Source of the DNA: an uncultured Paracoccaceae bacterium | Lineage (GTDB): Bacteria; Pseudomonadota; Alphaproteobacteria; Rhodobacterales; Rhodobacteraceae | Length of the DNA: 64,000 nucleotides | Assembly (NCBI GenBank): GCA_947495295.1 | Contig: CANLYJ010000001.1 | Span: forward strand, 558,001 to 622,000 | Reading direction: 5' to 3' | Shown here: positions 14,892 to 25,828 of the stretch, one piece after another | How positions within the stretch are numbered: the stretch's first letter is position 1 | Layout of the letters: every line of letters starts with the position of its first letter | Position numbers and translations under genes: made by a program | The notes under the pieces: model-generated | What the model was told of the DNA's origin: nothing | The model's input: only the letters and a program-made list of their open reading frames with translations | Database searches by the model: none

Positions 14892-15389
14892 ATGACCGAA
14901 ATATATTCCGATCTTGATGGGTTTGACCGCAAGATTCTCAACGTGCTTGCGGTCGAAGGGCGGATCAACGTCACGGAACTCGCACGGCGGATCGGATTGT
15001 CGAAGTCACCAACGCAGGCACGGCTGAAACGGCTAGAAGAAAACGGGGTCATCCGGGGCTACCGGGCGCTGTATGACCCGATCCGGCTGGGGCGGGATCA
15101 CATCGCCTTTGTCGAGGTTAAGCTATCAGACACGCGGGAGGCCGCACTGGCGGCCTTTGCCAAAGCCGTGATGCAAATCTCCGAGGTTGAACAATGCCAC
15201 CTGATTGCTGGGGCATTTGATTATCTGCTCAAGGTGCGGACCTCGGGGATGACAGGATACCGCGCTGTGCTGGCTGAAAAAATCTCAACCCTGCCGCATG
15301 TCTCCAACACGTCCACCTATGTCGCCATGCAGGCAATAAAGGAGGAGGGATTGTCACCGATCACCCCGGGCACCGGCCCCATGACTTGA
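14892..15389 (+). CDS. putR: Lrp/AsnC-family regulator, probable PutR
   Basis: 165 residues: an N-terminal HTH (DRKILNVLAVEGRINVTELA, then RIGLSKSPTQARLKRLE) and a C-terminal RAM ligand domain (HIAFVEVKLSDT ... EVEQCHLIAGAFDYLLKVRT). In alphaproteobacteria the Lrp-type gene divergent from putA is PutR, which activates putA when proline is present. The 104-bp divergent interval contains a short inverted ATCG-N4-CGAT (14827-14838) that could be part of an operator, but it is weak. Confidence 0.9.
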   Translation: MTEIYSDLDGFDRKILNVLAVEGRINVTELARRIGLSKSPTQARLKRLEENGVIRGYRALYDPIRLGRDHIAFVEVKLSDTREAALAAFAKAVMQISEVEQCHLIAGAFDYLLKVRTSGMTGYRAVLAEKISTLPHVSNTSTYVAMQAIKEEGLSPITPGTGPMT

Positions 15390-15420: not shown

Positions 15421-15960
15421 ATGAAATGGATACTGCCGCTTTGCCTGCTCGCCCCGCCCGCCCTTGCCGAAACCTGTCCGGCTGTGGCTGATCACGCTGA
15501 CAGGTTAGACCGGATCATCACCCAATTGGGCGCTTCTGGCGGAGAAGCAGTAGCCCAACAACTGTCACGCCAATTGTGGGAAATTTGGCTGGATGCACCT
15601 GACAGCAAGGCCCAGGAACTGCTCGACAAAGGCATGCGCCAACGCACCGAATATGACCTCTTGGGCGCACGGGACACGCTGGATGCATTGATCGAATATT
15701 GCCCTGCCTATGCCGAAGGTTATAACCAGCGTGCCTTCGCCAGCTTTCTGCGTCAGGATTATGATGCGGCATTGGTTGATCTGGATGCAGCCTTGGCGAT
15801 CATGCCAAACCATGTGGCGGCTTTGGCGGGCAAGGCGCTCACATTATTCGGGCTGGGAAGGGACGCCGAAGGGCAAGAGGTCCTGCGCGCCGCACTCAAG
15901 CTGAACCCATGGCTGCAGGAACGGGCACTTCTGCGCGAACCAATGGGCACTGAGCTGTGA
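15421..15960 (+). CDS. Periplasmic TPR protein
   Basis: 179 residues: a signal peptide (MKWILPLCLLAPPALA, cleaved after ALA) followed by a helical region and at least two TPR-like units (YAEGYNQRAFASFLRQDY, ALVDLDAALAIMPNHVAAL). TPRs mediate protein contacts; the partner is unknown. Two cysteines of the mature protein (near the N terminus and in IEYCPAY) could pair. It starts 31 bp after putR and may share its transcript. It is the last protein gene before the tRNA-Leu region. Confidence 0.8.
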   Translation: MKWILPLCLLAPPALAETCPAVADHADRLDRIITQLGASGGEAVAQQLSRQLWEIWLDAPDSKAQELLDKGMRQRTEYDLLGARDTLDALIEYCPAYAEGYNQRAFASFLRQDYDAALVDLDAALAIMPNHVAALAGKALTLFGLGRDAEGQEVLRAALKLNPWLQERALLREPMGTEL

Positions 15961-16004
15961 TCATGGCTTGCCCAACTTCGCTGGTCATCTTAGGAAGGTG
16001 ACGT

Positions 16005-16046
16005 GCCTGCTTGGTGGAATGGTGGACGCTGGACACTTAAAACCCC
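16005..16046 (+). pseudogene. tRNA-Leu(UAA)-like 5' half, copy 1
   Basis: The 5' part of a tRNA-Leu: acceptor 5' strand GCCTGCT, T8-G9, a D-arm (GTGGAATGGTGGACGC) and an anticodon loop CTTAAAA at 16036-16042, exactly 31 bases from the start, as in the intact gene at 16275. After the loop there is no matching anticodon stem, variable arm, T-arm or 3' acceptor strand. Confidence 0.7.
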
Positions 16047-16128
16047 GCCATGCCTTCGGCCTTGCATATTGTTATCAACGCCTTACGGGCCTATGGAGTT
16101 TTCGGGCCCGAAATCGGCCTGACACGCG

Positions 16129-16171
16129 GCCCGCGTGGTGGAATGGTAGACACGGGAGACTTAAAATCCTT
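16129..16171 (+). pseudogene. tRNA-Leu(UAA)-like 5' half, copy 2
   Basis: Starts GCCCGCG, then TG, a D-arm GTG...CAC and loop CTTAAAA at 16160-16166, again 31 bases from the start. The anticodon stem is only partly paired and no T-arm or 3' acceptor follows. Copies 1 and 2 share a later motif at about +95 (TTTTCGGGCCCGAAAT at 16099-16114; a degenerate version at 16225-16240), so the repeated unit is larger than the tRNA half. Confidence 0.7.
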
Positions 16172-16274
16172 GTGTCTGTGAAGCATTATGCATACGGAAC
16201 AAGGCATTGCGACGAAGAGACTGCTTTCAGGCCCAAAATAGGCCCGATGGTGAAAATTGAAGACAGCGCCGGAT

Positions 16275-16360
16275 GCGGGCGTGATGGAATGGTAGACATA
16301 CCAGACTTAAAATCTGAGGGGCGTATGCCCGTGTGGGTTCGAGTCCCACCGCCCGCACCA
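16275..16360 (+). tRNA. tRNA-Leu(UAA)
   Basis: An 86-nt complete class II tRNA: acceptor GCGGGCG/CGCCCGC, D-arm ATG...CAT, anticodon loop CTTAAAA with anticodon TAA (16308-16310), a variable arm (GGGC-GTAT-GCCC), T-arm GTGGG-TTCGAGT-CCCAC, discriminator A and encoded CCA (16358-16360). The 27-43 pair is C/A, otherwise all stems close. It is the third, and only intact, member of the local tRNA-Leu series. Confidence 0.93.
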
Positions 16361-16426
16361 CATTGACTGACTTCGCAGTGTGACTTTGACTTTTTGGAAA
16401 TCTGCCGAAGTCGCTAGTCTAGTCTT

Positions 16427-16537
16427 ATGATTTTGCCTCTTACCTCAGAAAAGTCCGAAGGCGATGTTGAGGTGCAGGTGGTTGTGCCACTGCTGAGCAA
16501 TGCCGAAACGCTAGGTGTTTTATCTCAAACCTACTGA
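16427..16537 (+). pseudogene. Stub resembling N terminus of type I restriction subunit HsdR
   Basis: A 36-codon frame whose translation begins MILPLTSEKSEGDVEVQVV and continues VPLLSNAETLGV. The [ST]E.DVE.K.V.PLL..A..LG pattern is typical of the N terminus of HsdR (and related restriction nuclease N domains). The frame stops at 16535-16537 and nothing similar continues, so this would be a remnant. It lies 66 bp after the tRNA-Leu, a usual place for island decay. The match is by eye over about 30 residues and is uncertain. Confidence 0.4.
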
Positions 16538-16551
16538 AGCTCCTCCAGCCG

Positions 16552-17835
16552 CTACTCCCCGACTCGTTTCGTCTCAAACGTCAGCCCGAAGGCGCTCCGT
16601 GGTCGGAACCCTTCCCAATATGTGTGTTCATCGGTGGGGTTTCCGTTTTCGTCGACGGCCCAGACGGCATCGTTCCCGGACGGCACCAGTTCGAAGTAGC
16701 TGGCTTTGTCGTTATCCCCTTTCAGGTGCAGGTCCATGAAGCCGGTAATGAAATGCTGGCTGACATTGTTCATTTTCGTCGTGTCCCAGACCGCGTCTGA
16801 GTAGTGCCCGAACGGAAACCAGCCATCGGCGGCGGGCAGGTCATAGCTTTCCACAGGTGCCGGCATGGGGGCGCCTGCGTTGTGGTTGGCGTTTTCGAAG
16901 GTCAGCAGGTGCCTTGTGGTGTTGACGGTGTCGTCGAACATCCCCCGGATCGCGTCATACATTGACACATCATCGACGCTGCCCGCGATCAGCATCAGCG
17001 GTTTTTCGATCCCCGCCCATCCATCCGCATCCCAGAACCCGGTATTGTTCCCCCAAGGCCCGAAAGCGACAAAGGCTTTGACGCGCGCGTCGGCAAGCCC
17101 CGCATGGCTATCTGCGCCCATCATATTGCGTTCCAGCAGGCCCTGCGGTGCCCCCCATTCATATTCCGTGCTGGCCTTGGTCACACCCGCACCGGCATAG
17201 ATCAGCGCGCCGTAACCCCCCATGGAATAGCCGATGATGGCGACGTTATCGCCTTGGATGATCGCGCCCAGATCGCCCTCCAGCGCGCCCATCTGGTCGA
17301 TCACAAACCGCTGATCCCATGGCCGGTTCACGAGGGTCGATCCAAATGCCGTCTGGTCGTCATAGGTGCTGTCAGGGTGATCGATAGAGGCGACGACATA
17401 GCCCTTTGAGGCAAGGTTTTCGGCCAAGGGTGACATCAGGAACCGGTTGCCCGGATAGCCGTGAGAGACGATCACAAGCGGGAAGGTGTTCCCGCTGTCG
17501 GGCGTTGCATCGCGGGCGGCCTGACCGGTGAGCGTGGCTTGGGTGATCCCGTCGCGCACCAACGCCGTCAGCGTGCCGCCCGGTGTTGTGTCGGCAGCGG
17601 CCGGGTACCAGATTTCGACCGTCAGGGCCCGGTCATAGGTTGGGATGTCCCCTGTTGGTCCGGTATTGACCACGTCGATCTGGTCGGGGTTGGTGAAGGT
17701 CATTGTGGTGACCCCGATCTTGTGATCGCCATAGGCGGCCAATGCGGGGGCGTCGGGGCGCACCACATCGATCCGGTTTTCGGCACCTGCTGCGGTTGCA
17801 GCGAGAAGGGTGAGGGCTGTTGGGAAAGCGCGCAT
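16552..17835 (-). CDS. Secreted alpha/beta hydrolase (PAF-acetylhydrolase/DLH-like)
   Basis: 427 residues: a signal peptide (MRAFPTALTLLAATAAGA), then an alpha/beta-hydrolase core with the oxyanion-hole region PLVIVSHGYPGNR and nucleophile elbow GYSMGGYGA. A late Asp (IAGSVDDVSMYD) and His (ENANHNAGAP) could complete the triad. Such proteins are periplasmic or exported esterases; the long insertion before the core resembles the platelet-activating-factor acetylhydrolase group. Substrate unknown. The gene ends 14 bp after the restriction-like stub on the opposite strand and stands alone. Confidence 0.85.
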   Translation of the reverse strand: MRAFPTALTLLAATAAGAENRIDVVRPDAPALAAYGDHKIGVTTMTFTNPDQIDVVNTGPTGDIPTYDRALTVEIWYPAAADTTPGGTLTALVRDGITQATLTGQAARDATPDSGNTFPLVIVSHGYPGNRFLMSPLAENLASKGYVVASIDHPDSTYDDQTAFGSTLVNRPWDQRFVIDQMGALEGDLGAIIQGDNVAIIGYSMGGYGALIYAGAGVTKASTEYEWGAPQGLLERNMMGADSHAGLADARVKAFVAFGPWGNNTGFWDADGWAGIEKPLMLIAGSVDDVSMYDAIRGMFDDTVNTTRHLLTFENANHNAGAPMPAPVESYDLPAADGWFPFGHYSDAVWDTTKMNNVSQHFITGFMDLHLKGDNDKASYFELVPSGNDAVWAVDENGNPTDEHTYWEGFRPRSAFGLTFETKRVGE

Positions 17836-25453: not shown

Positions 25454-25828
25454 GCGCGGATGGTCGGATGATCGCGGGCTGCAAGGTCCGAGGAAAGTCC
25501 GGACTCCAAAAAGCACGGTGCCGGGTAACGCCCGGCGGGGGTAACCCCAGGGAAAGCGCCACAGAGAACAGACGGCCACGCATGCGTGGTCACGGTGAAA
25601 CGGTGGGGTAAGAGCCCACCGCGCGACTGGCAACAGGAGCGGCACGGCAAGCCCCACCGGGAGCAATGCCAAATAGGGACCGCGCGTCGCAAGACAGGGC
25701 TGCTTGAGCCCGAGCAGGTCCGGGTTGGCAGCTAGAGGGCGTCTGGCAACAGGCGCTTTAGATGAATGGTCATCTCGGGCGGTGTAACGCCGCCTAGACA
25801 GAATCCGGCTTACAGGCCATCCGCGCGC
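25454..25828 (+). ncRNA. rnpB: RNase P RNA, bacterial class A
   Basis: The catalytic RNA of RNase P, which matures tRNA 5' ends. The conserved core GAGGAAAGTCCGGAC (25490-25504) and the 3' ACAGAATCCGGCTTACAG (25797-25814) are both present in the right order, and the ends pair as P1 (GCGCGGATGG with CCATCCGCGC). A T-rich tail (GTTTTATT) follows. Ends are approximate by a few bases. Confidence 0.96.

Follow-up and report, generated by a model that had tools for sequence, protein, structure and literature searches.

A tRNA-Leu(UAA) array in a Rhodobacteraceae genome as a probable record of stacked element integrations

In a 64,000-nucleotide stretch of DNA from an uncultured Paracoccaceae bacterium (referred to here as the window; its genome is G000), two 5' halves of a tRNA-Leu(UAA) gene stand in front of one complete copy. 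We consider it very probable that this array consists of two integration scars stacked in tRNA-Leu(UAA), with the tRNA of a type II element retained. The comparison with relatives strongly supports the assignment of the halves as attL scars of integrative elements, and the cell now probably depends on a tRNA that came with a mobile element.

Layout of the array and its flanks

ARAGORN identified a single tRNA in the window, a tRNA-Leu(UAA) at 16275-16360 with the acceptor GCGGGCG (B type, as distinct from the A type of other relatives), and Rfam concurs. All features of the array and its upstream flank lie on the + strand. The complete gene is the last member of a 41-nt direct-repeat family with copies at 16005, 16129, and 16275 (spacing 124 and 146), in which copies 2 and 3 are 83% and 68% identical to copy 1. 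This family bears out the three tRNA-Leu(UAA) starts given in a preliminary description made from the letters of the window, and the CTTAAAA loop begins 31 nt past the start in all three copies, as had been stated there. The third unit is also the only complete one, as described, since ARAGORN reports one tRNA and no other 3' half was found in the window (allowing up to two mismatches per motif) or in the genome (exact pattern). A BLAST search of G000 with an A-type 3' half matched the resident tRNA alone at E 0.001, and no element right end was found in this genome. The window thus holds two left ends and a tRNA, while the right parts were not found, and the case rests on relatives because the right end, a second 3' half, and a close relative of the integrase were not found in the window's genome.

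Each copy has a paired 3-bp D-stem (GTG/CGC, GTG/CAC, and ATG/CAT). The pairing noted earlier is therefore real, but the base changes do not reflect compensation in dead copies, as GTG/CAC and ATG/CAT are the D-stems of two kinds of live tRNA-Leu(UAA) in relatives. Acceptor pairing with the 3' end of the resident tRNA amounts to 4/7 for copy 1, 5/7 for copy 2, and the full 7 for copy 3. Based on the repeat and on the comparison of acceptors and D-stems, copy 1 (16005-16044) is a 5' half that ends in a mutated core, ACTTAAAACC, and would represent the outer attL, and copy 2 (16129-16168) is a 5' half with the core ACTTAAAATC and would represent the inner attL. Copy 1 may stem from the tRNA-Leu(UAA) that the host originally had. 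Copy 2 is probably half of the tRNA brought by the first element, an origin and order suggested by the layout; because its 5' half is one base off the half of strain CCS2, we only infer that it derives from a type I tRNA. A group I intron in the window tRNA was considered and rejected, as the anticodon loop is uninterrupted. In a congener, G012, the anticodon loop of the tRNA-Leu(UAA) at this locus is interrupted by a sequence resembling a group I intron (L031:2329-2659; Rfam Intron_gpI, 45 bits, E 2.3e-10, under the gathering score of 50); this intron-bearing gene stands behind one 5'-half scar and shows the tRNA gene replaced in another way.

The spacers that follow the two halves were assigned by alignment to element left ends. 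Spacer 1 (16045-16128) matches type I left ends, with 78% identity over 85 nt to Litoreibacter 403 and 82% over 62 nt to Roseobacter N1Y178 (scores of 69 and 67, against a best type II score of 38 and shuffle maxima of about 20). Spacer 2 (16169-16274) matches type II left ends, with 93% identity over 96 nt to strain CCS2, 92% over 108 nt to G017, and 83-84% to Sulfitobacter marinus and Jannaschia faecimaris (scores of 122-169, against a best type I score of 41). When the spacers are aligned, they fall with few gaps into two main kinds that are related to each other; the left ends of Litoreibacter 909, P. ferrugineus, a Pseudorhodobacter MAG, and UBA9292 are intermediate and fit neither kind cleanly. 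With one window spacer matching type I and the other type II, two insertions are the most likely history of the window, the type I insertion being the outer one. This two-element reading is less sure than the scar reading, given the relatedness of the two kinds and the existence of intermediate left ends. The lengths of the two left ends, 84 and 106 nt, also account for the kept register to which the preliminary description drew attention: the register is indeed regular, but it is set by these fixed left ends.

The motif reported earlier at about +95 of both partial units was located at 16105-16122 (GGCCCGAAATCGGCCTGA) and 16230-16247 (GGCCCAAAATAGGCCCGA) by left-end alignment and motif search, and is a conserved repeat of the left ends. 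The GGCCCGAAATCGGCCTGA repeat is perhaps an integrase arm site. A two-sided set of arm sites was rejected as unsupported, with exact AGGCCCG present on the right side in only two of 11 elements. In the alignment, GCATACGGAACAAGGC (16190-16205) is also strongly conserved among type II left ends; it is perhaps the promoter of the element's tRNA.

Upstream of the array, a gene for an Lrp/AsnC-family regulator (14892-15389; Pfam AsnC_trans_reg, 1.9e-20) forms a conserved flank and is followed by a gene for a TPR protein (15421-15960; Pfam TPR) directly upstream of the tRNA site. In tblastn searches, relatives of these genes were detected at 49 and 37 of 54 genus loci, respectively, some of the loci being short, and by eye a similar TPR gene occupies the same position in G325. 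The stretch at 15968-16004 (TTGCCC ... TAGGAA, by eye) resembles the sequence before intact A-type tRNA genes of relatives and is probably what remains of the native tRNA promoter; a promoter and terminator scan of 15900-16500 found nothing, including no match to the sigma-70 consensus.

The DNA past 16361 is highly variable. Within its first 900 nt, more than 150 nt are common to only 21 of the 1,378 pairs formed by 53 genus loci, and none of the downstream stretches at the 52 other loci contains a counterpart of the window's esterase gene (16552-17835). By this comparison the region from 16361 onward is an insertion hotspot, and its variability means that the boundary of the lost element bodies cannot be set. 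At three of the 53 loci, all of A type, a metG relative occurs no more than 2.5 kb downstream of the tRNA, in keeping with an undisturbed flank there. Elsewhere in the window, 25456-25828 encodes an ordinary class A bacterial RNase P RNA.

Arrays, integrated elements, and integrases in relatives

A first search of 60 genomes revealed the second half and its spacer in several congeners, and at least nine of 394 family genomes match over half, spacer, and tRNA (G000, G015, G134, G248, G123, G097, G210, G325, and G400). In one of these, the uncultured Roseobacter N1Y178 (G325), the integrated state can be followed by eye: the Lrp gene, the TPR gene, a 5' half, an 86-nt left end, and a complete tRNA are followed by an element of 14.6 kb, then the integrase, a 3' half, and a metG-like gene. 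An exact pattern consisting of ACTTAAAATC, 73-133 nt, and TGGAATGGTAGACA was then run on 84,980 species genomes. This search resulted in 22 loci, every one of which is a half followed by a left-end spacer and a complete tRNA-Leu(UAA). The named genera are Roseobacter, Sulfitobacter, Litoreibacter, Ruegeria, Pseudorhodobacter, Marinosulfonomonas, Roseovarius, Jannaschia, and Litorivita, which we place in the Rhodobacteraceae or Rhodobacterales, and the remaining loci are from Rhodobacteraceae or Rhodobacterales MAGs. The complete tRNA-Leu(UAA) begins about 85-107 nt inside the left end, the spacers of the named arrays being 86-107 nt long (measured for L104 between its two halves). The same pattern matched five loci in viral contigs, all of them clusters of complete tRNAs.

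Twenty of the 22 genomes (all but those of L100 and L108) were searched for a 3' half and an integrase. An exact second 3' half was present in 11, the other nine having one 3' sequence by the exact pattern, and each of these 11 extra 3' halves has an integrase match, in some cases partial or broken, no more than 160 nt away. The integrase is stop-free, near full length, and on the contig of the tRNA in G452, G455, G456, G457, and G461, and has one stop in G468. It is on another contig in G463 (near full length), G453 and G466 (partial), and G459 (two frames), and in strain CCS2 (G454, also G011) it is a 49-residue remnant with two stops. Litorivita (G467, identical to G248) has an inexact 3' half with a repeated stretch beside an integrase fragment, bringing the total to 12 of 20. 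Where tRNA and 3' half share a contig, they are 12.9-15.8 kb apart in six genomes and 2.5 kb apart in CCS2, where the matching 3' half lies downstream of the tRNA. The site, the core, the detached 3' half, the integrase, and the carried tRNA are thus all present in relatives, and integration scars, one of the readings offered in the preliminary description, correspond to an integrated state that exists.

The integration core is the 10 bp ACTTAAAATC in the anticodon loop. When the flanks on the 5'-half side and the 3'-half side were joined, ARAGORN recognized a tRNA-Leu(UAA) in 10 of the 11 genomes, compared with none of the 11 for the attL side alone. As the flanks have little in common beyond ACTTAAAATC, the element cannot rebuild the tRNA gene. 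The exception is Ruegeria 406, in which the joined flanks give no tRNA, the half is decayed, and the 3' half is identical to that of the resident tRNA; an array that was stacked and then collapsed would explain this failure. A collapsed double layer would likewise explain the mixed ends of CCS2, whose right end resembles Litoreibacter 403 by eye although its left end is type II. In G017 the middle half reproduces nucleotides 1-40 of the resident tRNA exactly, and in S. marinus the 5' half, the 3' half, and the carried tRNA are all identical; judged by these identities, both cases look like re-integration into a tRNA of the carried type.

Three elements were scanned in part against PHROGs (six proteins of G325, 14 of S. 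marinus, and 10 of Ruegeria 2-58), and no capsid or tail families were detected among these proteins. The G325 element encodes an integrase (Phage_integrase and Arm-DNA-bind_3), an HTH_17 protein, a Prim-Pol protein, a D5_N/DUF5906 protein, and a terminase-small-subunit-like protein. The S. marinus element encodes the same five along with a C5 methylase, a dCTP deaminase-like protein, and one protein that matches PADLOC PDC-M38A and PD-Lambda-5_A. The Ruegeria 2-58 element encodes an integrase, a DUF5906 protein, and a terminase-small-subunit-like protein, with no HTH protein among those scanned, as well as an Eco29kI-like restriction enzyme, a C5 methylase, and proteins with GmrSD_N and FRG domains. 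Defence-type genes are therefore present in both elements that were scanned for them, S. marinus and Ruegeria 2-58.

A search of the 56 genus genomes revealed no close intact relative of the integrase; the best matches are a G004 piece that is 48% identical and contains a stop, full-length proteins at 31-35% identity (one of them in G000), and the CCS2 remnant. Integrase relatives at E 1e-40 or better occur in seven of 394 family genomes. Those of G325 and G248 adjoin a tRNA-Leu(UAA) 3' half. The G117 integrase, 54% identical to that of S. marinus, adjoins a tRNA-Asn 3' half, and a complete tRNA-Asn with the same 31-nt stretch lies 3.4 kb off (L252, L257), the arrangement of ordinary rebuilding; this relative would be useful for tracing the interchange of the two schemes. 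In G390 a 3' end read as tRNA-Gly lies about 1 kb from the integrase, and no tRNA was seen near the integrases of G400 (a fragment), G419, and G440. The integrases of G419 and G440 (L250, L251), 53-55% identical to that of S. marinus, adjoin similar sequence that by eye appears to be the same coding gene. As the neighbours differ across these relatives, the tRNA-Leu habit is a feature of a branch of these integrases.

A plasmid or phage source of the array was rejected at the DNA level, as seven plasmid and 56 phage records match but none over 80% of the array; among the 20 phage matches listed, a tRNA-Leu is annotated at the match in most and no feature in a few. When viral sequences were scanned with the integrases of S. 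marinus and Ruegeria 2-58, no relative emerged; among plasmids, the S. marinus integrase is matched best by a Rhizobium gallicum sequence (NZ_CP006879.1 38452-39126; 52.7% identity over 55% of the length). A search for a free form in viruses with a left-end 20-mer matched one viral contig, L051, which has no tRNA and is probably a chance hit. A 31-mer of the B-type tRNA matched one viral contig, L052 (IMGVR_UViG_3300008222_000023, 26.6 kb), which carries a B-type tRNA-Leu(UAA) 31 nt from the contig end together with HTH genes and might be a prophage at the same site.

Occurrence in the genus and readings of the array

The window and strain CCS2 belong to what we take to be the genus Yoonia. 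The tRNA pattern was matched in 53 of 56 genus genomes, and 54 loci were examined, 53 with a readable complete tRNA and one, G012, with the intron-bearing gene; G001 and G033 were left out. The acceptor is of A type at 38 of the 53 loci and of B type at 15. Each 220-nt upstream stretch was compared with 200 plain shuffles of itself, and the 99% level was used as threshold. A type II left end scored above this level at 11 of the 15 B loci, with one more equal to it (G027), and at none of the 38 A loci (Fisher p < 2e-8, relatedness ignored). A half scored above it at seven of the 15 B loci (G000, G011, G015, G017, G026, G486, and G487) and again at none of the 38 A loci. At three B loci (G010, G014, and G021) neither half nor left end was detected, and the B gene lies directly behind the native promoter-like stretch. 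Given this association, the resident B-type tRNA of the window was most likely brought by the type II element. On an Lrp protein tree of 48 rows, including 14 of the 15 B loci, the B label requires eight changes, at least six of them forced by well-supported branches; this tree of one short protein, on which gains are not separable from losses, does not show a single origin of the B type.

The preliminary description had proposed a check for other tRNA-Leu(UAA) genes in the genome. An RNA-model search of the 4.27-Mb assembly resulted in 39 tRNAs, an incomplete list from which tRNA-Tyr and tRNA-Ile are absent. Of the 38 whose anticodons were read, none has UAA, and the Leu anticodons CAA, UAG, GAG, and CAG occur once each. 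In a DNA search, and again with an exact tRNA-Leu(UAA) pattern, the window gene was the sole match, and it appears to be the single tRNA-Leu(UAA) of the assembly. As no other was found in G000, a need of the cell for the carried tRNA is likely. One congener has a second complete tRNA-Leu(UAA), beside tRNA-Met on a 14.4-kb contig (L246, G006:C17) that is perhaps part of a mobile element.

In the course of events that we propose, a tyrosine integrase would recombine the attP of the element with the anticodon loop of tRNA-Leu(UAA). With only ACTTAAAATC as common core, neither junction would restore the gene, and the complete tRNA-Leu(UAA) just inside the element's left end would replace the broken one. 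A type I element would have entered the host gene first, leaving copy 1 as its 5' half, and a type II element would later have entered the tRNA brought by type I, leaving copy 2. The bodies and right ends would have been lost afterwards, and the type II tRNA would have stayed because no other tRNA-Leu(UAA) remained. We infer the order of these events, the function of and need for the tRNA, and the loss by deletion.

An alternative to two different elements is a single integration followed by local duplication or rearrangement of the attL unit. The sister genome G015 has one scar only, as this would predict, although there either the array collapsed or the insertions were independent. The two window left ends are also alike over 23 nt (83%, score 26 against a shuffle maximum of 20), and both kinds are related. 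Over the remainder they are not alike, however, and they score best with two different kinds from other genera; arrays of three units also occur in G017, L104, and, from BLAST matches, probably G123. We regard this alternative as unlikely, and for the window itself the left-end matches make two integrations the likely history.

Tandem duplication of the resident tRNA gene with later decay of the 3' parts, proposed in the preliminary description, would account for the similarity and common orientation of the three 5' halves, and in five of the 22 arrays the half and the resident 5' half agree at every position over 30 nt. In 11 of the 22, however, the acceptor of the half cannot pair fully with the resident tRNA, the filler is a conserved element end common to several genera, and in 12 of the 20 genomes searched an integrase adjoins a detached 3' half, all of which makes such a duplication very improbable. 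The further suggestion that the halves are kept as small RNAs or decoys derived from tRNA 5' halves is the least credible of all: the register is regular and the halves may still stand behind the native promoter region, but no RNA family reached the Rfam cut-off at the half copies, and at five of the 12 genus loci with a left end (G022, G024, G027, G034, and G490; one of the 12 is borderline) the half has fallen below the 99% shuffle level, which is the drift in relatives that the preliminary description had itself named as evidence against it.

Taking the stacked-scar reading together with the arrays of other genera, we lean toward a broader view in which a satellite-like family of Rhodobacteraceae elements hijacks an essential tRNA: it would cut the gene, supply its own cuttable copy, and stack, loss of the 3' half would turn the arrangement into permanent dependence, and the scars would be a record of invasion and of repeated replacement. 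If true, tRNA-dependent integration extends from temperate phages to satellite-like, defence-carrying elements of a major marine family. The signature of a half tRNA, a fixed spacer, and a whole tRNA would detect past events after the element is lost, and it suggests a one-way step, in that once the far end is gone the element's tRNA cannot be given up. Half-tRNA arrays should accordingly not be read at once as small-RNA genes or simple duplications.

Relation to known systems

Phage-inducible chromosomal islands (PICIs) have a typical gene set of int, an excisionase-like HTH gene, a primase/replication module, and a terminase small subunit within 10-20 kb. In gene content the elements described here resemble PICI-like phage satellites, and G325 and S. 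marinus agree with PICIs in size and gene set, the Ruegeria 2-58 element lacking an HTH protein among those scanned. The defence-type genes of the S. marinus and Ruegeria 2-58 elements are a further point of agreement. By gene content the elements are candidate satellites, and the integrase is less than 27% identical to its phage matches in the best 15 of 22 phage records. The annotated record of Rhizobium phage Pasto contains an integrase and its own tRNA-Leu, as found here.

According to Guerrero-Bustamante and Hatfull (mBio 2024, PMC10865867), tRNA-dependent lysogeny in mycobacteriophages (Fionnbharth and others) involves a tyrosine integrase and a core of about 10 bp from which the tRNA is not rebuilt, so that a phage tRNA of the same isotype is required, a need shown by mutants. 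The Rhodobacteraceae elements share the sequence features of this scheme, namely a non-rebuilding core, a tRNA of the same isotype, and an adjacent tyrosine integrase, as well as a single host gene as target. In the mycobacterial case the carriers are temperate phages (PMC10865867), whereas here they are elements of 13-16 kb without a capsid or tail match among the scanned proteins. The present case further differs from that account in the host family (Rhodobacteraceae), the target (tRNA-Leu(UAA)), the stacking of scars, and the loss of the element with retention of its tRNA (PMC10865867).

For the vTRX32-1-like prophages of Rhizobium, PMC8631192 describes integration at a 12-bp core within tRNA-Leu and a whole tRNA-Leu carried by the phage, and the elements studied here are similar in both respects. 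The phage tRNA-Leu is described there as free of the core, a lack that is said to prevent super-integration; the tRNA carried here, in contrast, keeps the core, and such copies were found cut again. For Sinorhizobium, PMC12429752 describes ordinary tRNA rebuilding and PMC11476347 a likely substitution of the host tRNA gene. Ordinary tRNA-borne islands (Islander, PMC4383910) have a tyrosine integrase, a tRNA target, and a displaced fragment at the far end, as here, but restore the tRNA gene with their own sequence, unlike here; the G117 integrase at tRNA-Asn fits the island scheme. In titles and abstract openings, mostly from outside subscription journals, we found no description of these elements or of stacked half-tRNA scars in Rhodobacteraceae. 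In our analysis, then, the scheme of integration is one known from phages, and what sets the present case apart is that it appears in another kind of element, can be stacked, and is left behind as a host gene.
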